NCBI RefSeq assembly: GCF_001905795.1
Contig: NZ_LIXJ01000004.1
Location: 428,409 to 492,408 of the forward strand
Length of the DNA stretch: 64,000 bases
Direction: 5' to 3'
Origin: Streptomyces sp. CB01580
Lineage (GTDB): Bacteria > Actinomycetota > Actinomycetes > Streptomycetales > Streptomycetaceae
How positions within the stretch are numbered: position 1 is the first letter of the stretch; each line of letters begins with the position of its first letter. The translations under genes were made by a program, and so were the position numbers. Under the pieces are notes generated by a model, which saw only the letters and a list, made by a program, of their open reading frames with translations, was not told the origin of the DNA and made no database searches. Positions 3,140 through 57,555 of the stretch are shown one piece after another.

Positions 3140-3176
3140 ACGCCTCACCCCTCCCGCGCACCTCACCGAACTGGAC

Positions 3177-5519
3177 TCACGTCTGAGGATCATTGCCCTG
3201 CTGCTGCGCACGGTCGTTCCCGACCCCATATCCGATCCGCATCGACTCCTTCAAGTCCTGGCGAAAATCGGAGTCGACAGCAGTTGCATGCCTCTCCAGG
3301 AAATTTTCCATGGGCGCCTCAGCCATGGACTCGCCACCGCTAAACACCTTGCTCTTCTCTTCCCGAGTGAGTTCCTCAATCTTTTCCTTGTGTTCATCCA
3401 CGGACTGGTCGGACAGGTCCCCGATGAAATTTCCGATGACGTTTTCCACGAGTCCGCTACCCGCATCAGTCCCCACCTCGATAAGTGTTGCCGCCGCACC
3501 TGCGGCTGCAACGGGCGGCAGAAAGGCAACCCCTGCGGCGATGCCTACACCGGCTCCGAACTCGATCCAGCCGGAACGGGCGGCCACGGCCTTCTCGTAA
3601 TCCTCTTGATCCTTCATCTTCGATGCCACGACCTGATCCGCACGGGCCTGGTCGAGCATGCCCTGCACCTCCGCGCCCGTACCCACCACTGCCCGCGCGC
3701 CACCCTCGTTGATCTTGCCGTCCGGACCCACTTGGCGCTCCAGCATGTTGGAACTGTAAATCTGCTCGGCAGTAGAGACTGTCGCATATGCGTCTGGGTG
3801 ATGCCCCAGGGTGGTGAGGAATCTACGCGTGACGGCTCTTACTTCACCTTCTTCCATGTCGGAGAAGTCGAGACGCCCCTCCGATCCATTGCCTGACGCA
3901 AAGAGACTGCCCGGATCGCGCTTTTCCAGGCCCCAGTTGATGTCGTCGATGTACCCGGCAGCCATGACCCCGAGGCTGCCGGACATCGCTTCATGCGTAT
4001 TGGGCAGGCCGGCATCTGTGCCGTACTTCTCCATGACCATGCGCATGACGTTGGCGTTGTCCGCGTCCCGTGTGACACCCTCATGCGGGCTGTCGTGCGG
4101 ATAGCCGAGAGTCGCCGCCTCCAATGCGTGCCCCAGTGAGGCCGGCATGTAGTCGAGCGCCTTCTTCTGTTCCTTCGGGTCGAGCGAGTCGACGTCTCCG
4201 TAGGACGTCCACTTCTCGTTCCCGAAGAAGTCGAGGTAATTCCCGATGGCCGCATCATCCTCGCCTTTGCCGAGGTTGGCCGTCGCACCCTTGTTGACCG
4301 TGCCGTCCTCGTTGTACGCAGTCGGCTCATCGGCGAAGAAGTGTTTCGCCGCATCGGGGCTGTGTCCGAGCGCCTCCAGCATGGACACGGTCGGATCGTA
4401 GCCGGAGCCATTGACGCCCGAGGGGTTGAACGGGTTCTTAAACGGGCTGTTCACCACCTTGTTCTGCGCGAAGAGGTAGGGGTCCTTCTGGTGCAGCTGG
4501 GCCACATGCTCGGCGATCGGGTTGAGGAACTTCGCGTCATAGTTTCCATACCGCATGATGCCGCCAAGCAACTGGTAGCCGAAGGGGCTGTTGCTGTCGT
4601 ACTTGGCCAGTGGGACGTGCTGCGTGCCCAGCTTTCGCAGCTCCGGACCCCATTTGTCGCTGAACTCCTTGTCGTGTGACGCGGTGGCCAGGTTGAGCCC
4701 CAGATTCTTCTGGAGATCCTGGGCATCCTTGAGCCGCTCCTTGTCGACCTTTCCGTAATCGTACGTGTCCGTCGAGAGCTGCCCAAAGAACGCAAGGGAC
4801 TTCTCCGGACCGAGCTTCTCGTAGAAGTTCTTCGCGAATTCCGGTGATCTGGCGTTGTCGCGAAGCAGTTCGTTGAGCGCCTGGAGTTCGGTGTGCGTGA
4901 GGTCGCGGCCCTTGGCGGCGAGTGCGGCAGCGCGGGCCGCCTCCTCCTGGTCCAGTTTCGTGTACTTCGGCGCGTTGAAGTCCTGACGGTCGGTGACGTT
5001 GGCCTCAAGCGCGTTCTTGAACGCGATATCCGTGTCGTTGCAGTTGTCGACGATGAGGCCGATCTTCTTCTGCCACGCCTCGATACTGGCCTTCTCCTTG
5101 CGCAGGAGTTCGGAGTAATCGGGGTCGTGCCGTGCGGCCGGAATCTCCGAAACAGGATGCCGGGCCGTGACCTTGCCCTTGGCATCGACATGAACTCCAG
5201 CCGCCGGTCCCTCGTCGTCCCGAATGCTAATCAGGTCGTCCTTGGCCTTCTTGATGGCCGTGTGGGCGTCCTCAAGGATCTGTTTGACGCCCTTGGCCTC
5301 GGCCGCCGCGTCCCCGAACTCCTTCGCGGTCTTCCCGATGAATCCCCTGGTGACCCCGGCGTTGACGCCCTCCCACTCGGCCTTGCCCGCCTTCGCCTTC
5401 ATGCCGTTGCGAGCATCCTCGGCCAAACGCTCCAGCTTGGTGACCATCTCGGACCAGTCATCGGCGGCCGTCTTCAGCTTGCCCACGGGCGCGTCGACGA
5501 CGTCCTCGAACTTCAGCAT
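3177..5519 (-). CDS. large WXG100-like / ESX-type protein of unknown function
   Basis: A 780-residue protein starting MLKFEDVVDAPVGKLK. Residues 1-110 are a helical, charged WXG100-like region (DDWSEMVTKLERLAEDARNGM, then WEGVNAGVTRGFIGKTAKEF). Next comes a mainly helical body rich in Asp, Asn and Lys. Near residues 660-715 there is a Gly/Ala-rich hydrophobic hairpin (GAGVGIAAGVAFLPPVAAAG) that could insert into a membrane. There is no Sec signal peptide, as expected for type VII substrates. The ATG at 5519 has a GGGGGG site about 9 bases upstream. It follows the 144-residue gene by 20 bases and precedes the lipoprotein. Its codon third positions are noticeably less GC-biased than the flanking core genes. 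It may correspond to the long uncharacterised DUF6571-type Streptomyces proteins, which I could not verify. Confidence 0.6.
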   Translation of the reverse strand: MLKFEDVVDAPVGKLKTAADDWSEMVTKLERLAEDARNGMKAKAGKAEWEGVNAGVTRGFIGKTAKEFGDAAAEAKGVKQILEDAHTAIKKAKDDLISIRDDEGPAAGVHVDAKGKVTARHPVSEIPAARHDPDYSELLRKEKASIEAWQKKIGLIVDNCNDTDIAFKNALEANVTDRQDFNAPKYTKLDQEEAARAAALAAKGRDLTHTELQALNELLRDNARSPEFAKNFYEKLGPEKSLAFFGQLSTDTYDYGKVDKERLKDAQDLQKNLGLNLATASHDKEFSDKWGPELRKLGTQHVPLAKYDSNSPFGYQLLGGIMRYGNYDAKFLNPIAEHVAQLHQKDPYLFAQNKVVNSPFKNPFNPSGVNGSGYDPTVSMLEALGHSPDAAKHFFADEPTAYNEDGTVNKGATANLGKGEDDAAIGNYLDFFGNEKWTSYGDVDSLDPKEQKKALDYMPASLGHALEAATLGYPHDSPHEGVTRDADNANVMRMVMEKYGTDAGLPNTHEAMSGSLGVMAAGYIDDINWGLEKRDPGSLFASGNGSEGRLDFSDMEEGEVRAVTRRFLTTLGHHPDAYATVSTAEQIYSSNMLERQVGPDGKINEGGARAVVGTGAEVQGMLDQARADQVVASKMKDQEDYEKAVAARSGWIEFGAGVGIAAGVAFLPPVAAAGAAATLIEVGTDAGSGLVENVIGNFIGDLSDQSVDEHKEKIEELTREEKSKVFSGGESMAEAPMENFLERHATAVDSDFRQDLKESMRIGYGVGNDRAQQQGNDPQT

Positions 5520-6144: not shown

Positions 6145-6217
6145 GCACGGCCGTTGGGATCACCATCTGCGGGACTGAGTAGGCTGCTCGTGTTCCGTGA
6201 CGTCCGGGGGTCCCTGC

Positions 6218-7123
6218 ATGCAACAGCCACACCGCTCCCCCGCCCGGCGGATCGGCCCCTACACGGTCATCACGAGGCTGGATCCGACCGACCCCGGGGC
6301 ATCGCCCGTTCCCGAGCAACGTTTCATCGCACGCAGCGCGGACGGCGACCGGACTTCGGTGGTGAGCGTCCCGCTGGACAACGCGACTTCCGCTCGATTC
6401 CTCGTCGAGGCACAGGCATCCCGATGCCATCTCGGTCCGTGGTTCGCTCCCGTCACCGAGTGCGCGGACCCCGGCCTGCCCGTGTGGTGCGCGCGCCCGT
6501 ACCTGCCCGCCGTCCCGTTGCCGACGGCCCTGGCCGTCCACGGGGGTCCGTTCCCCGACGACACGCTACGGGACCTGGGCGCCCGTCTGGCGGGGACGAT
6601 AGCCATCGCCCATGCCTCCGGACTGGCGTATGCCGGGGTGTCCCCCGCCTCCGTACTGCTGGCAGGGGACGGTCCGCGACTCACCTGCTTCGGTGCGGTC
6701 CGGACCGCCGCCGAGGACGGACAACCGCGCTCCGGACTTCCCGGCCTGGAGCCAGGCAGCCTCCCACCCGAACAGGCGGCGGGCGGACGACCTCGGCCAC
6801 CGGGCGACGTCTATGCGCTGGGCGCCGTGCTCGCGTACGCGGCGACCGGCCACACCGTCCCCGAACGGGATGAACTTCCCGTCATGCTGCGTTCACTCGT
6901 GCCGGCCTGCCTCTCCCGGGATCCCGCGGCCCGCCCCCGGGCGATCGACGTACTCCAGGCCCTCTCGCCCGACTCGCCCACCTCACCGGTCGCCACCGTC
7001 CTGGACCTGGAACCGGAAGCACACCGTATGCGGCTGCCCGGCCGGGTGATCGCGGCGATCGCCCAGCAGTCCGCGTCGGTTCTCGCAGCAGACGTCCAAC
7101 GCCATCCGGAAGCTGACGAATGA
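6218..7123 (+). CDS. Ser/Thr protein pseudokinase
   Basis: A 301-residue Hanks-type kinase-fold protein that has lost its catalytic residues. The segment HASGLAYAGVSPASVLLAG (about residues 132-150) aligns with the normal catalytic loop HAAGVVHRDLKPSNVLL. HRD has become YAG, and the Lys and Asn are replaced by Ser. DFG has become CFG (residues 158-160). No GxGxxG loop or VAxK lysine is visible near the N-terminus. C-lobe features such as DVYALGAVLAYAATG and CLSRDPAARPRA are intact, so the fold is probably kept. The ATG at 6218 was preferred to the GTG at 6197. The stop overlaps the next kinase start (ATGA), implying coupled translation. The likely role is a scaffold or allosteric partner of the downstream kinase (inference). 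Confidence 0.8.
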   Translation: MQQPHRSPARRIGPYTVITRLDPTDPGASPVPEQRFIARSADGDRTSVVSVPLDNATSARFLVEAQASRCHLGPWFAPVTECADPGLPVWCARPYLPAVPLPTALAVHGGPFPDDTLRDLGARLAGTIAIAHASGLAYAGVSPASVLLAGDGPRLTCFGAVRTAAEDGQPRSGLPGLEPGSLPPEQAAGGRPRPPGDVYALGAVLAYAATGHTVPERDELPVMLRSLVPACLSRDPAARPRAIDVLQALSPDSPTSPVATVLDLEPEAHRMRLPGRVIAAIAQQSASVLAADVQRHPEADE

Positions 7124-9420: not shown

Positions 9421-10425
9421 ATGAAACCGCTCGGCCCAGGAGACCCGCTCCGGCTCGGCCCCTACCGTCTCCACGGTGTACTCGGCGAAGGCGGGATGGG
9501 CAAGGTCTACCTCGGGCAGGACCGTGACGGCCGCCGCGCCGCGGTGAAATCACTGCGGCCCGAGCTGTCGCATGATCAGCAACTCGTACAACGCTTCGTA
9601 CGCGAGGCGCAGACCGCACGAACGGTCACCAGCGGGAGCGTAGCTCGGGTGCTGGACGCGCAGGTCGAGGGCGGGCGCCCGTGGATCGCCAGTGAGTTCC
9701 TGCCCGGTCCCGACCTGGAAAAGGCAGTCGCCTCCCACGGCCCGCTGGACGGCCCGACCGTGTGCGTCCTGGCCTCGGCCCTGGCCCGCGCCCTGCGCGA
9801 TGTCCATGCCGCCGGCATCGTGCACCGCGATCTCAAACCGGCGAACATCGTGCTGACTTCGGACGGACCGCGCGTCATCGACTTCGGCATCGCCCGTCCC
9901 GAACACGGTCTCACCCTGACGACCACGGGGCAGATTCCCGTCACCCCCGGATACGGCGCCCCCGAGCAGGTACTCGGCCACCGGGTGGGCCCGGCCGCCG
10001 ATGTCTTCTCCCTGGGTGCTGTGCTGACGTACGCCGCAGGCGGACAACGCGCCTTCACGGGCGGTCACGTCGCCGCCGTACAGTACGAAGTCGTGCACGG
10101 AGAGCCCCGGTTGTCGCACATCCCCGAGCAGCTGCGTGCCCTCATCGCTCCCTGCCTCGCCAAGGAACCCGGACTGCGCCCCGGACCGGAACAGATCGCC
10201 CAGGCGTTCGCGCCCCCACGACGAGCCGAGAAGGTCTGGCGACAGAGCAGCCTGATGCCCTTGATCGACCAGTACGAGACCGAGGCGAGGCGGCTGCTCC
10301 CCGCAGTCGGCCCGCCTGCGCCGATGAGTCACGCGCGGCGCAGGTTCCTGACAGCGCTCACCGCTGGAGGGGCCGCACTCGCCGTGGGCGGCGGGACGGC
10401 CGCGTGGCGGCTCAGGGACGGCTGA
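9421..10425 (+). CDS. Ser/Thr protein kinase with a bare C-terminal membrane anchor
   Basis: A 334-residue kinase with all key motifs: GEGGMG loop, Lys43, HRDLKPAN with Asp137, DFG at 154 and APEQ around 180. The tail is MSHARRRFLTALTAGG followed by a hydrophobic segment and stop, so the anchor resembles the internal RR-type anchor of the neighbouring kinase but no extracellular sensor follows it. An AAGGAGA ribosome-binding site precedes the ATG at 9421, and the gap to the previous kinase is 78 bases. Its 3' end overlaps the convergent pseudo-protease gene by 14 bases. It may be a paralogue of the propeller kinase that lost or never had its sensor, or one that senses through a partner protein. 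Confidence 0.9.
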   Translation: MKPLGPGDPLRLGPYRLHGVLGEGGMGKVYLGQDRDGRRAAVKSLRPELSHDQQLVQRFVREAQTARTVTSGSVARVLDAQVEGGRPWIASEFLPGPDLEKAVASHGPLDGPTVCVLASALARALRDVHAAGIVHRDLKPANIVLTSDGPRVIDFGIARPEHGLTLTTTGQIPVTPGYGAPEQVLGHRVGPAADVFSLGAVLTYAAGGQRAFTGGHVAAVQYEVVHGEPRLSHIPEQLRALIAPCLAKEPGLRPGPEQIAQAFAPPRRAEKVWRQSSLMPLIDQYETEARRLLPAVGPPAPMSHARRRFLTALTAGGAALAVGGGTAAWRLRDG

Positions 10426-11677
10426 GCCGCGCACGGCGCCGGTCGGCCATCAGCAGCGGACCCGCAATGCCGACACAGAGCACGCCGACCGCGCACATCG
10501 CGAGAGCGGCCCAGAAGGATGCGCTGTGCCCGCCGTCCGTCACGGACGACATGGGAGCGTCCAACACGGGCGCGGCACCCGCCTTGTCGGCATGCTCCTT
10601 CGACGGCGTCGGCGACGGGGAGGACGCGGGCCGGGGTGGGGGCGGCGAAGCGGTGCGGTAGTCGGGGATCGGGTCCTTGTCGGCCGCTCCGGGGTCGCCC
10701 GGCGCCTTCAGCGCGACACGGGGACGGACGGCGCCGTATCCGACGTAGTCGTTGCGCACGGCCCCGCTGGTGGGACCGCTGGCCGTGTTCACCATCACGC
10801 GCAGAACCTGGTTCGCCGTCCACGTGGGGTGCTCGGCCCAGATCAGCGCAGCGGAAGCGGAGACGAGAGCGGTTGCCACCCCGGTGCCGCGGCTCCTGCA
10901 CAGCCCGGTCCCGCCGGCGCATGCGCTGATCACGTCCTCGCCAGGGGCACTGAGATCCACGGTGATCCCCACACCGGCCTTCTTGATCGCCTTCAGGTCC
11001 TTGCCGATGCCCGTGACACCGACAACTCCGGGCGTCGCAGCCGGGTACCCCACCTGCGGATCGTCGACGCCGAAGTCACCGACGGCCGCGAAAATCAGCT
11101 TTCCCTTGCTCCGCGCGTACTCCACGGCATCCCGCACCGGTTGGTCGTCCGTGTACGTGCCGAACGACACACTGATGATCTTGGCCTCGGAGTCGGCCGC
11201 ATATCGAATGGCCGGAGCCAGCCCTTTGTTGATCTCCTCGCTCTGCGCGGCAGCGTTGCCGACGCCCCGTCCATCGGGGATCACCAGAGGAAGGATCTTG
11301 GCCCCCGGAGCGAGCCCGTACGCACTCTCCCGGCCACCGAGCCCCCTGCCGGTACCGGCGATCACGGAAGCCGCCGTGGTGCCGTACTCGTCCAGCTTCG
11401 CGGCGTCCGCCCCCGCGAAGCTCTTGACCGGGAGAAGCCGCCCCGCCAACTCGGGAACTTCACGCACGCGGGTATCGATGAGAGCGACCGTGACGCCCTT
11501 CCCGGTGCTGGTCCGCCATATCTCTTGGGCCTTCATGGCGTTGAGGTGCCATTGATCGGAAAAGACGGTGTCCGCCTGCGCGGGTGCGGCCACGCCACCG
11601 GCCAGCAAAAACGCCAACGCGGCCAACACACACGCTCGTTGAAGCGTCCGCTTCCTCTCACTGCTGCGCATACGCAT
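10412..11677 (-). CDS. catalytically dead mycosin-like subtilase (S8 pseudoprotease)
   Basis: A 421-residue secreted, membrane-anchored subtilisin-fold protein. It has a Sec signal peptide (ending about residue 35), the motif VALIDTRV with Asp68, and then substitutions at the other catalytic positions. The His-containing motif HGT is YGT (Tyr98), the oxyanion Asn is Asp201 (AAVGDFG), and the nucleophile motif GTS is GTG (Gly266). The paralogue at 12827-14251 keeps all of these. The reading frame is otherwise undamaged, with a Pro/Ser-rich linker and a C-terminal transmembrane helix (about residues 390-412). It is thus a maintained pseudoenzyme rather than a decaying gene. The ATG at 11677 follows GGGGGG; an ATG two codons later is also possible. 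It could bind or protect type VII substrates or regulate the active mycosin (inference). Confidence 0.85.
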   Translation of the reverse strand: MRMRSSERKRTLQRACVLAALAFLLAGGVAAPAQADTVFSDQWHLNAMKAQEIWRTSTGKGVTVALIDTRVREVPELAGRLLPVKSFAGADAAKLDEYGTTAASVIAGTGRGLGGRESAYGLAPGAKILPLVIPDGRGVGNAAAQSEEINKGLAPAIRYAADSEAKIISVSFGTYTDDQPVRDAVEYARSKGKLIFAAVGDFGVDDPQVGYPAATPGVVGVTGIGKDLKAIKKAGVGITVDLSAPGEDVISACAGGTGLCRSRGTGVATALVSASAALIWAEHPTWTANQVLRVMVNTASGPTSGAVRNDYVGYGAVRPRVALKAPGDPGAADKDPIPDYRTASPPPPRPASSPSPTPSKEHADKAGAAPVLDAPMSSVTDGGHSASFWAALAMCAVGVLCVGIAGPLLMADRRRARLSRP

Positions 11678-15763: not shown

Positions 15764-16276
15764 TCAGTAGGAAGTCTCGCCAGGCTTTTTGCCCTTCAGC
15801 GCCGTCTGCTCTGCCGCGTAGTGGGCGTTCGTGCGGTTCTGGATCGCGAGCATCCGGTCTCGTACGTCCAGGTCGACGTGCTCGTAGCCCTTGTGGGAAG
15901 CAAGCACCGCGATGCTCATGCCCTCGATGGAGTCCGACAGCAGCCTGGACAATTGCTCCAGTTCCTTGATGACCGTGGAGTACACGCCGTGCAGCGCGTT
16001 CGCCTCCGCCCACTCACCGCTGTCGCCCCCGAAGTGCGTACGCGCCACGCGGTCCTGGCCGACCTTTCCTGGGCCGGCCGGTGAGCCCTTGAGATCGCGC
16101 AGGAGTTCGTCGACGCGGTCACGGAACTTGGTGAACGACGAGAGCTCGGTGACAAGGTCGCCCACCGCGGTCTGGGCGACGGCGCCGATCGGGCTGATGG
16201 CGCCCAGGGCTCCGAGACCGCCCATGACGGCCGATGACAATGGCGAAGACTCGACTCCCGGTTCGTTCTGTCCCAC
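15764..16276 (-). CDS. small ESX-associated helical protein
   Basis: A 170-residue protein starting with a GTG at 16276, chosen because GGGGGAGGGG lies about 7 bases upstream. The N-terminus has a small-residue segment (SAVMGGLGALGAISPIGAVAQT). The rest is predicted helical with many Leu/Glu heptads (STVIKELEQLSRLLSDSIEG), resembling the helical-hairpin ESX substrates although no WXG is evident. It is the first gene of the three-gene unit with the WXG-motif protein and the active mycosin. No named family was recognised. Confidence 0.7.
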   Translation of the reverse strand: MGQNEPGVESSPLSSAVMGGLGALGAISPIGAVAQTAVGDLVTELSSFTKFRDRVDELLRDLKGSPAGPGKVGQDRVARTHFGGDSGEWAEANALHGVYSTVIKELEQLSRLLSDSIEGMSIAVLASHKGYEHVDLDVRDRMLAIQNRTNAHYAAEQTALKGKKPGETSY

Positions 16277-16356
16277 AGCAACCCCTCCCCCGTCCGGCAA
16301 CAGCCGATCACTGCTCAGGTGTTCACCTTAGTCAACCCCCATGACAGCGTGCACCT

Positions 16357-53823: not shown

Positions 53824-56800
53824 ATGCAGATCCGGCTGACCGTCCTCGCGCCGCGCAGCGGCCAGACCCCGGCGCGCGCCTGTGACGTGCTGGTCACCGC
53901 CCCGCCGGGGACGGCGCTCGCCGCCGTGGCGCCCGGGCTGGCCTCGGCCGTCTCCGGGTCCGACGGGCCGGCCGGCGGCGGTGCCGTGGTGCTGTTCGCC
54001 GGGCGCGAGCGGCTCGACGCGCAGCGGTGCGCGCTGGGCGAGCCCCCGCTGGTCGACGGGGCCGTGCTCTCGCTCCAGGTCCCGGGCGAGGACGACGCCG
54101 GGGACGACGCCGTTCCGGCCCAGTTGCACGTGGTGGCGGGGCCCGACGCGGGCGGGGTCCATCTGCTGCACGGCGGCCGGGTCAGCGTCGGCCGCTCCGC
54201 CGACGCGGACGTCCCGCTCGACGACCCCGACGTCTCGCGACTGCACTGCGCGGTGACGGTCGCCGAGGACGGGCTGGTCTCGGTGACGGATCTGGGGTCC
54301 ACCAACGGCACCCTGCTCGACAGCAGGCCGGTCCGCGAGCGTCCGGTCCGGCTGAACCCCGGCGCCCTGCTGCGGCTCGGCGAGTCGACGCTCCTGCTGA
54401 CCTCCGGCGCGCGCACGCCGACGCTGGCGACGACGCCGGACGGCGAGGGGCACCTGCGGGTGTCCGGCACGGCCGACGGGCCGACCGACGAGCACGATTC
54501 CGGCCATGATTCCGGCCATGCGTACGCCCCGGGGGTCCTCCCCGGGACGGGGCACGGCTCCGGAACCGGATACGGGGCGGCGGCGCACGACGCCCGGGAG
54601 GGCGGTGACGGAGGGCACGGCGACACCGCGACCGGCCGTCGCCCCGCCCCCTCCGGCGTCCCGGGCGGTGCTTCGAGCCCCTCGGAGACCGCCTCCGCCC
54701 CTGCGGAGGGCGAAGCACCCCGGAGGGGCGGGATAGGCGCCTGGGCGCGCCGGCTCGCGGGTGGCAGGGGCGAGAGCGCCCATGGGGCGACACCCGACGG
54801 GACCGGCGCCGCCGCGCCGCCGCACGGGGACTCCGCCGCACCCCCCGCGAAGCCGGGGGCGGGAAGCATCTGGCCCGATCCCGCGGCCGTGCTGCTGACC
54901 GCGCTCGGCCCCGGCCCCCGGCTCTGGGAGCGCGGCAGCGCGCACTCGGAGGCGCTCGTGGTGCGGCTGGGCACGACCGACCGGGCCGAGCTGCCCGCCG
55001 TGCCGGTGACCGTGGGGCTGCGGGAGGCCGGTTCACTCGGCCTGGCCGGGCCGCGGAACCGGCTCGCCGGGCTCGCCCGTTCGGTGGTGGCGCAGCTCGC
55101 CGCGCTGCACTCCCCCGCCGATCTGGAGATCGTGCTGATCAGCGCGGACCGGGCGCGCGGCGCCGAGGAACGCAGGCGCGAGTGGGGCTGGCTCGGCTGG
55201 CTGCCGCACGTGCGTCCGACGCGCGGCCAGGACTGCCGACTGCTTCTCGCGTACGACCGCGAGCAGGCCGTCGCCCGCACGGCCGAGCTGGTCCGGCGGC
55301 TGGACGAGGGCCCGCTCGGGCCCGGCTGGGCGAGCCTGGACCGGGCCACGATCGCGGAGGCCGCCGCGCGGTACGCGGGGCCGTTCACCGTTCTGATCGT
55401 CGACGGCGACCCCGGGTCGGCGGCACTGCGCGAGAGCACCGCCCGGCTGGCCGCCGCCGGTGCCGCCGCCGGGATCCATCTGATCTGTCTGGCCGAGACC
55501 CCGGCCGCCACGCCCACCTCGCCGGTCGCGGCGACGTACGAGGCCGCCTGCCACGCCTCGATCGCGTTCCGCGAGTGCGGGGCGGTCGCGATGCTGAGCG
55601 GCGACGTGGCGACGGCCCTGCGGCTGCTGCGCACGGCCGACGGCCGGGCGGCGGGCCGCGGCACGGTCGCCGCGGTGGACGCGGTCTCGGCGCACTGGGC
55701 CGAGCGGTTCGGCCGGGCCCTGGCCCCGCTGCGCACGGACGCTGCGGCGTCGGCGCACGGCGGGACCGCATCGACCGCGCTGCCGCTCTCCGCCCGACTG
55801 CTGGACGAACTGGGCCTGGCCCGGGCCACCCCGGCCTCCCTGATGGCCCGCTGGGCGTCCGCGGCGGACGACCGGCCCCCCACGCCCCCGATGACCGCGG
55901 CGGCCGCCGCGGCCGCCGCGGCCCGCCGTCCGGTCGGCCCCGCGGGCGCCGGTGGCGGTACGGGCGCGGCCGAACCGGACGACCCCGGTTCGGGCCGTAC
56001 GCGCCACCCCGCCCAGCAGTCGCGCGGCGTCACCGCCCGCGTGGGTGCCCAGCGCTCGGTCCTCGGCCCGCCGTCCGGACCCGGCGGATACGGTCCCGGT
56101 GCGGGGCGCTCCCCGTACCCCGGCAGCGACACTGTCACGCACGTCGGCACGGTGAGCCACGGCCTGGCCCGCGACGACGCGCGCGGGAGCCACGAGGCCC
56201 ACGGCACGCCGGACGCCGACGAGGGGCGCGGGGCAGGCGAGGGCCGGGACTCCGGGCGCACCCCGTACCCCGACACCAGCACCCCCCGGGTCAGCGGCGG
56301 ACGCTACGGCGGGTCGCCCGCACCGGCCCCCGGCTCCCGCACCGTCACCGGGGCCGGCGGGTGGAACGGCACGGGCAGATCCGCGGCAGGGCGTCCCTCG
56401 GTGGCCGCGCACGCGGGCGCGAGCACCGGCGCGGACACGGGAGCAGGGGCCGGGAGGGGAACAGGAGCCGGGACGGGCACGGCCGCGGCCGTGCGGGACC
56501 GCGGAGCCTCCGCCTCCGCCTTCGGCCGCCCCTTCGTGGTGCTCGGCGCCGGGCCCCGGGGCGCGGTCGGCGTGGACCTGACGGAGGAGGGCCCCCATCT
56601 CCTCGTCGAGGGCCCGCCCGGCAGTGGACGTACGGAGCTGCTGCGCGCCGTCGCCGCCTCGTTGGCCGCCGCCGACCGGCCCGACCGGCTCGGCATCGTG
56701 CTGGTCGACGGCGCGGGTGCCGAGCGCGGCGAGGGCCTGGCCCCGTGCGCCGAGCTCCCGCATGCCTTCACGCATCTGGTGGCCAGCGATCCGGTACGGA

Positions 56801-57555
56801 TGCGGGAGTTCGCGCAGGCGCTGGGCGGCGAGCTGAAGCGGCGCGCCGAACTGCTGGGCGAGGAGGACTTCGGCGCCTGGCACCAACGGTGGGAGCTGGC
56901 ACGGCGGATGGTCGGTCAGCGTCCGCCGAGCGCCGCCGAACAGCGCGGCGACGTGGACTCACCGATGAGCGGGACGCTCCGGCTGCGCCCCGCCGGTGCG
57001 CGGTCCGCGGTCCCCGGGCCGTCCCCGCTGCCCCGGCTCGTCGTCCTGGTCGACGACTTCGACGCACTGGTCGCGCCCGCGCTCGGCAGTCCGGGCCGTC
57101 CCGCCGCCGGTTCGGTGGTGCGGGCCCTGGAGGCCGTGGCGCGGGAGGGCGGTCGGCTCGGCGTCCATCTGGTCGCGGCGTCGGCCTGCCCGGAGCGTAC
57201 GGAGGACACGGACCTCGCGCAGGGGGCCCGGTTGCGCATCGTGCTCGACGCCCCGGCCGTCCCGAGCTCGCCGGAGGACCCGGCGCCCGGACGTGGCCGC
57301 CTGGGCCATCCGGACGGGCGGGTGACCCCGTTCCAGGGCGGCAGGGTGACGGGACGCATACCTCGCACGGCGACATCGCGGCCCACTGTCGTCCCGCTGG
57401 ACTGGGAGCGGATGGGCGATCCGCCGGCCCGCCGCCCGGTCCGTGAGCTGGGCAACGGTCCGACGGACCTGGCGCTGCTGGCCAGTGCGCTGGAGCGGGC
57501 GGCCCGGTCGGTGAACGCCGAACCGGTGGCCCCGCTCGGCCCCGTCCGCTCCTGA
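53824..57555 (+). CDS. FHA-domain protein with FtsK/SpoIIIE-like ATPase region
   Basis: A 1243-residue protein. Residues 1-95 form a ubiquitin-like lead, and a canonical FHA domain spans about 100-180 (VGRS at 122-125, SRLHC at 138-142, STNGT at 159-163) that would bind phosphothreonine. A disordered Gly/Ser/His tract follows, then a FtsK/EccC-like alpha/beta region (about 350-680). A second disordered region leads to another P-loop module (about 910-1160) with HLLVEGPPGSGRTELLRAV and Walker B LVVLVDDFDAL. The Walker A lysine is replaced by Arg (GPPGSGRT, 930-937), so ATP hydrolysis is doubtful. The divergent kinases are obvious candidates to phosphorylate its partners. It resembles type VII EccC-type ATPases in organisation, but without membrane spans. 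Confidence 0.85.
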   Translation: MQIRLTVLAPRSGQTPARACDVLVTAPPGTALAAVAPGLASAVSGSDGPAGGGAVVLFAGRERLDAQRCALGEPPLVDGAVLSLQVPGEDDAGDDAVPAQLHVVAGPDAGGVHLLHGGRVSVGRSADADVPLDDPDVSRLHCAVTVAEDGLVSVTDLGSTNGTLLDSRPVRERPVRLNPGALLRLGESTLLLTSGARTPTLATTPDGEGHLRVSGTADGPTDEHDSGHDSGHAYAPGVLPGTGHGSGTGYGAAAHDAREGGDGGHGDTATGRRPAPSGVPGGASSPSETASAPAEGEAPRRGGIGAWARRLAGGRGESAHGATPDGTGAAAPPHGDSAAPPAKPGAGSIWPDPAAVLLTALGPGPRLWERGSAHSEALVVRLGTTDRAELPAVPVTVGLREAGSLGLAGPRNRLAGLARSVVAQLAALHSPADLEIVLISADRARGAEERRREWGWLGWLPHVRPTRGQDCRLLLAYDREQAVARTAELVRRLDEGPLGPGWASLDRATIAEAAARYAGPFTVLIVDGDPGSAALRESTARLAAAGAAAGIHLICLAETPAATPTSPVAATYEAACHASIAFRECGAVAMLSGDVATALRLLRTADGRAAGRGTVAAVDAVSAHWAERFGRALAPLRTDAAASAHGGTASTALPLSARLLDELGLARATPASLMARWASAADDRPPTPPMTAAAAAAAAARRPVGPAGAGGGTGAAEPDDPGSGRTRHPAQQSRGVTARVGAQRSVLGPPSGPGGYGPGAGRSPYPGSDTVTHVGTVSHGLARDDARGSHEAHGTPDADEGRGAGEGRDSGRTPYPDTSTPRVSGGRYGGSPAPAPGSRTVTGAGGWNGTGRSAAGRPSVAAHAGASTGADTGAGAGRGTGAGTGTAAAVRDRGASASAFGRPFVVLGAGPRGAVGVDLTEEGPHLLVEGPPGSGRTELLRAVAASLAAADRPDRLGIVLVDGAGAERGEGLAPCAELPHAFTHLVASDPVRMREFAQALGGELKRRAELLGEEDFGAWHQRWELARRMVGQRPPSAAEQRGDVDSPMSGTLRLRPAGARSAVPGPSPLPRLVVLVDDFDALVAPALGSPGRPAAGSVVRALEAVAREGGRLGVHLVAASACPERTEDTDLAQGARLRIVLDAPAVPSSPEDPAPGRGRLGHPDGRVTPFQGGRVTGRIPRTATSRPTVVPLDWERMGDPPARRPVRELGNGPTDLALLASALERAARSVNAEPVAPLGPVRS

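Follow-up and report, generated by a model that had tools for sequence, protein, structure and literature searches.

Does a mycosin-like subtilase that lacks most of its catalytic residues still have a role, and with which of its neighbours would it act? This question is raised by a gene (PSE) in a 64,000-nucleotide stretch of DNA from Streptomyces sp. CB01580, which is referred to as the window (Table 1). An earlier reading made from the letters alone (the sequence-only reading) held that His, Ser, and the oxyanion Asn are replaced while Asp68 is kept. Alignment with intact homologues confirmed this assignment, placing Y98 at the His, D201 at the oxyanion Asn, and G266 at the Ser position. 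The retained Asp lies in a motif reading DTRV, as compared to D[TS]GV in intact homologues. The ORF comprises 421 aa with no internal stop, and the frame is thus undamaged, as claimed; signal peptide, linker, and membrane anchor also remain, with the signal peptide and the C-terminal membrane helix predicted from 19-residue hydropathy peaks (starting at residues 15 and 392) and AlphaFold2 helices (residues 6–27 and 386–417).

Table 1. Features of the PSE locus in window coordinates, and the PSE orthologues from other genomes.
Feature	Position	Strand	Remarks
Effector-like protein, 787 aa	3177..5540	-	label a guess; PF25547 WXG100_2 at E 0.22, below cut-off
K1, predicted pseudokinase	6197..7123	+	HRD reads YAG, DFG reads CFG, no VAxK lysine
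K2, Ser/Thr kinase, 740 aa	7120..9342	+	C-terminal PQQ propeller
K3, Ser/Thr kinase, 334 aa	9421..10425	+	K/HRD/DFG motifs kept; no PQQ propeller
PSE/K3 overlap of coding ends, 14 bases	10412..10425		tail-to-tail
PSE, dead mycosin	10412..11677	-	predicted signal peptide, S8 domain with D68/Y98/D201/G266, Pro-rich linker, TM helix, basic tail
P-loop kinase-like gene, 194 aa	12031..12615	-	AAA_33; Zeta_toxin barely above cut-off; between PSE and active mycosin
Active mycosin, 474 aa	12827..14251	-	DHNS intact; TIGR03921 323.1 bits
WXG/PPE-like protein, 475 aa	14280..15707	-	WKG motif and name assigned by eye; without Pfam match; order kept in related loci
Small WXG-like protein	15764..16300	-	by eye only, no Pfam match, ORF start uncertain; order kept in related loci
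PSE orthologue L159 (genome G684)			68% identity; D-H-N-S reads DREA
PSE orthologue L150 (genome G194)			57% identity; D-H-N-S reads DGEA
PSE orthologue L160 (genome G702)			56% identity; D-H-N-S reads DGYE
PSE orthologue L060 (Streptomyces sp. NRRL WC-3549)			54% identity; D-H-N-S reads DRDA

The family assignment of PSE is split. Pfam returned Peptidase_S8 (102 bits), and the best NCBIfam model was T7SS_mycosin (TIGR03921), for which PSE reaches 247.4 bits and stays below the cut-off of 278.75; of the Asp/His/Ser triad plus oxyanion Asn that characterizes mycosins, only the Asp is present. The AlphaFold2 model (pLDDT 80, pTM 0.73) shows a subtilase fold like that of MycP1 and MycP3, with a Z-score of 37.6 against MycP1 (4j94; rmsd 3.0, 296 aligned residues) and 36.7 against 4kg7. 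Generic subtilisins score as high (Z up to 39.0), and the fold alone therefore does not single out mycosins. PSE further resembles mycosins (PDB 4j94, 4kb5, and 4kg7) in its signal peptide, linker, and C-terminal anchor, in a conserved Cys pair (C253/C260), and in having WXG-like gene neighbours; it differs from them in its score below the TIGR03921 cut-off, in the missing catalytic His, Ser, and oxyanion Asn, and in a constant neighbour that is a kinase without a propeller. By its sequence, PSE is a conserved non-peptidase mycosin, a 'pseudo-mycosin'. Given the missing catalytic residues, this S8 homologue probably does not cleave, and we infer an extracellular binding function for it.

To judge how old and how general the loss is, relatives were compared. 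In an initial search, 36 of the 61 genomes of the genus, the own genome included, had homologues, and all 34 ORFs read in 33 loci of the other genomes are intact and resemble PSE less than they do the active neighbour. Deeper searches revealed PSE orthologues in four more genomes, with 54–68% identity to the window copy. Asp is kept and His, Asn, and Ser are lost in all four, with differing replacement residues, so that the three losses are common to 5/5 members, which marks them as probable pseudoproteases. A family search of 394 genomes gave nine matches at E 1e-50, of which four genomes (own included) carry a PSE member and the other five DHNS. At E 1e-30, 74 of 392 genomes matched, and the PSE members among the 30 places read were those of the own genome and G194 only; a search centred on G194 in a redrawn set of 392 genomes returned G194 as sole match at E 1e-50. 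A single-protein scan of genome contigs gave no match. DHNS is found in 162 of 170 distinct mycosin cores, the remainder being the five of the PSE lineage, one DHEG (L085), one DDIR (L221), and one with a gap at the Asp. Since DHNS is so prevalent and replacement of His, Asn, and Ser recurs in four orthologues, the loss is more than chance, and since four further genomes carry equally dead orthologues, it is not recent. Among the open-licence PMC papers listed, no titles or abstract openings pointed to a natural dead mycosin.

Two of the remaining cores are further dead mycosins that are unrelated to PSE. In Streptomyces antnestii (L085, 6182–7678, + strand), the second gene of a tandem mycosin pair keeps the His, while the oxyanion Asn is changed to Glu and the Ser to Gly; this gene is nested among intact mycosins and is a separate loss. 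In genome G712 (L221, 1644–2738, + strand), a dead mycosin lies directly upstream of K1 on the same strand, and its alignment is less sure because of a very long branch.

The mycosin tree was calculated from 95 of the 170 cores by a quick method with SH-aLRT support only and with the catalytic columns blanked. All five PSE members form one clade (SH-aLRT 99), which joins an 18-row clade of intact mycosins (support 90). The neighbouring active mycosin sits in a 51-row clade (support 100), and PSE lies outside of this clade and is not its sister. As judged from the tree, PSE is an old paralogue, and an origin as recent tandem copy of the neighbouring mycosin is ruled out. The calculation of dN/dS that the sequence-only reading had called for (NG86) resulted in 0.352, 0.433, 0.428, 0.257, and 0.194 for the five PSE pairs computed, values that are rough because dS is high, near saturation. 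They are well below 1, yet higher than those of the active mycosin (0.12–0.18, four pairs); K3 and K2 gave 0.18–0.26 and 0.29–0.48, respectively. At least 95% conservation in the 162 intact mycosins is seen at 78 positions; 5/5 PSE members retain 62 of these, and eight are kept in at most two members, including the catalytic H, N, and S. Furthermore, 13 positions are fixed in PSE and rare (<15%) in intact mycosins; among these, F388, G398, C401, and D412 lie within the predicted C-terminal helix (386–417). Recent random decay is rejected by the dead orthologues and by dN/dS below 1. Neither orthologues with an intact triad nor relaxed selection, which the sequence-only reading had named as evidence against itself, came to light, and its proposal of a retained pseudoprotease with a non-catalytic role is therefore supported. 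We consider it very probable that PSE represents a real, selected pseudoprotease lineage. Such natural dead mycosins reveal the surfaces that remain under selection after the loss of cleavage.

Which neighbour could PSE serve? The locus comprises a xanthine-dehydrogenase-like gene, two WXG-like genes, the active mycosin, the P-loop gene, PSE, the kinase genes K3-K2-K1, and the effector-like gene, in this order. The active mycosin shares 49% identity with PSE over 408 columns and ends ~1.15 kb upstream of the PSE start codon, and the intact paralogue reported at 1.1 kb upstream is thus confirmed. An active mycosin is found within ~6 kb of PSE in 4/5 loci. The description of PSE as standing next to its active copy is borne out only in part, since PSE is an old paralogue from outside the neighbour's clade, the effector-like gene lies between PSE and the active mycosin in L159, and no active mycosin is found on the PSE contig of G702 at E 1e-30. 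The effector-like gene is near PSE in 4/5 loci (L060 ends before that place), and the P-loop gene has no match at the corresponding place in L150, L159, and L060. In the source genome (8.49 Mb, 82 contigs), six matches to the PSE protein were obtained, PSE itself included. EccC (876 bits) is located on contig C37, with a mycosin-like match (34% identity) ~4 kb away, so the genes of the ESX core lie at another site of the genome.

On its other side, PSE faces K3 tail-to-tail in 5/5 loci. The 14-base overlap recurs in L159, L060, and L150, and is replaced by a gap of 290 bases in L160. We compared K3 across 63 rows, in which two row pairs are identical, some genomes contribute two rows, and one row (L236) runs off its contig. 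K3 of the five PSE loci measures only 334, 334, 336, 336, and 342 aa, consists of the kinase and a hydrophobic segment with twin arginine, and has no PQQ match in any of the five. All other complete K3s are 672–717 aa long (57/57) and match PQQ_2 (57/57). For K2 and K3 alike, the best-scoring model is NF053615 (AfsK-like Ser/Thr kinases with PQQ from Streptomyces), far below cut-off; K2 and K3 share the kinase domain with this group, and the propeller is found on K2 and on full-length K3, unlike K3 of the five PSE loci. Window K3 ends just past the twin-arginine segment, which is weakly hydrophobic, with no 19-residue window reaching 1.6, and in full-length K3s this segment gave weak Tat-signal matches (UCR_Fe-S_N in 7/57, TAT_signal in 1/57). 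Propeller relics were not found between K3 and PSE, where each match in the stretches scanned either falls on the membrane segment that K3 has kept or has an E-value >0.04; stray PQQ propeller matches in the whole-locus scan fall on K2. K1 appears to be a pseudokinase throughout: in the rows showing the HRD/DFG sites (52/53), neither motif is kept in any (mostly HAG and CFG), and the lysine is kept in 0/50 rows showing that site.

The constant position of PSE beside a propeller-less K3 is new here: the short kinase is constant, and the active mycosin neighbour is not. This kinase neighbour, present in 5/5 loci, was absent from the sequence-only reading. A strict rule by which dead mycosins occur only with a short K3 is rejected by L085 and L221, as both stand beside kinase blocks with full-length K3; hence, a dead mycosin can persist there even when the kinase has kept its sensor. 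An apparent enrichment of dead mycosins beside the kinase block (7/39 vs. 0/74) was likewise discarded, as five of the seven represent one clade that was found by similarity to PSE, leaving 2/34 otherwise.

L160 in genome G702 shows mixed ancestry. Its K2 and K3 group with full-length relatives of another lineage (trees; AU p = 0.0009 for K2 and 0.03 for K3), whereas PSE of L160 falls within the one clade of all PSE members. Along L160 K3, 15 of 17 windows resemble the full-length relatives and the last two the short group. Two wholly independent truncations of K3 are suggested by the trees, which split L160 off, yet the end of L160 K3 resembles the short group, and transfer of one truncated K3 end is therefore as likely as two truncations. 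Most simply, the truncated K3 end would have travelled together with PSE; a functional pair is expected to do so, but mere linkage would have the same outcome. A second K3 in G702 (L204) is full-length, with no mycosin match in the surrounding 12.8 kb.

These observations suggest a sensing or docking part for PSE. We put a probability of about 40% on PSE being an exported, anchored pseudoprotease that replaces the lost sensor of K3. In this model, a ligand from the cell wall or exported by ESX would be recognised outside the cell by the subtilase domain; the membrane helix of PSE and the hydrophobic twin-arginine segment of K3 would form a pair, and ligand binding would set the state of the kinase and, through it, that of the WXG/mycosin locus. 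This sensor role is favoured by a single clade of orthologues that are all dead with the Asp kept (dN/dS 0.19–0.43, 62 of 78 positions kept, intact fold), by a short K3 in every PSE locus and full-length K3 elsewhere without propeller relics, and by L160, where K2 and K3 of a foreign lineage are nevertheless accompanied by PSE and a K3 end of the short group. The PSE-only fixed residues in the predicted C-terminal helix, and, by analogy, the precedent of CspC, also point this way. With more hesitation, the arrangement may be seen as a split receptor, in which a dead protease taken over from the type VII secretion locus serves as exchangeable outside sensor of a kinase that gave up its propeller, and the pair of kinase membrane segment and pseudo-mycosin moved as a unit into a second kinase lineage (L160). 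Several points argue against a sensor: the genes are convergent, and PSE and K3, being on opposite strands, are not co-transcribed; L085 and L221 have full-length K3; the K3 segment is weakly hydrophobic; and dN/dS of PSE exceeds that of the active copy. Moreover, the propeller may have been lost simply through the mechanics of the overlapping genes, and due to shared ancestry, the five loci amount to one or two events. If the kinase link is true, it presents the case of a signalling kinase that exchanged its sensor domain for a separately encoded pseudoenzyme, in a genus that is harmless and tractable.

The main rival, which we regard as somewhat unlikely, is a non-catalytic partner of the mycosin/ESX membrane complex, acting either as stabiliser or as decoy for substrates or for the mycosin's seat, and thereby tuning secretion. 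A study on Mycobacterium marinum, which approached the essential, proteolysis-independent role of mycosins in type VII secretion via deletions and engineered inactive mutants, states that mycosins stabilise the ESX-1 and ESX-5 complexes independently of proteolysis and that inactive MycP1 raises secretion (PMC5082899). The MycP1 S354A variant described there is a mycosin that can still serve secretion without activity (PMC5082899); its single substitution was engineered into a protein that is normally active, whereas PSE is a natural lineage. Proximity to an active mycosin in most loci and the presence of EccC on another contig would fit such a partner. However, the active neighbour is inconstant and did not give rise to PSE by recent duplication, and the short K3 in 5/5 loci is left unexplained. 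PSE may also regulate the adjacent active mycosin, but this neighbour is less constant than the short kinase. More doubtful still is a lone, peptide-binding surface pseudoprotease with no link to the kinase, which might capture or protect an exported WXG or effector-like protein. The intact fold, the retention of most conserved positions, and the frequent presence of the effector-like gene are consistent with this. In subtilases, though, a Ser-x-Gly strand motif pairs with the substrate, and this site reads SFG, SLS, SVT, SPA, and SVA in the five PSE members; the substrate groove thus looks degenerate. Slow decay of a redundant paralogue under relaxed selection, kept by chance and with K3 truncation as by-product of the overlap, is the reading we disfavour most and consider very improbable. 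Although dN/dS above that of the active copy and the rarity of PSE (4/394 genomes at E 1e-50) would agree with decay, five frames have remained open with the four orthologues at no more than 54–68% identity to the window copy, the Asp is kept in all five, and conserved positions outside the active site are retained with dN/dS well below 1.

For a sensor role, a close comparison is provided by CspC and CspA of Clostridioides difficile, which are soluble spore proteins from a different branch of subtilases than PSE. They are not known to have a membrane anchor or a partner kinase, unlike in the picture drawn for PSE. Like PSE, both are dead S8 domains, and published reports describe them as subtilase pseudoproteases kept for signalling, with CspC as a signalling node (PMC12880746, PMC6636752).

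Two minor observations were made on other type VII-related sequences. At ~54985–56862 of the window (+ strand), matches of EccC/FtsK type are weak (81 and 41 bits) and fall in open frames of 1991 residues. In L060, two tandem mycosins flank a fragment from the C-terminus of the 475-aa WXG-like protein (3173–3571, + strand), possibly a trace of block duplication.
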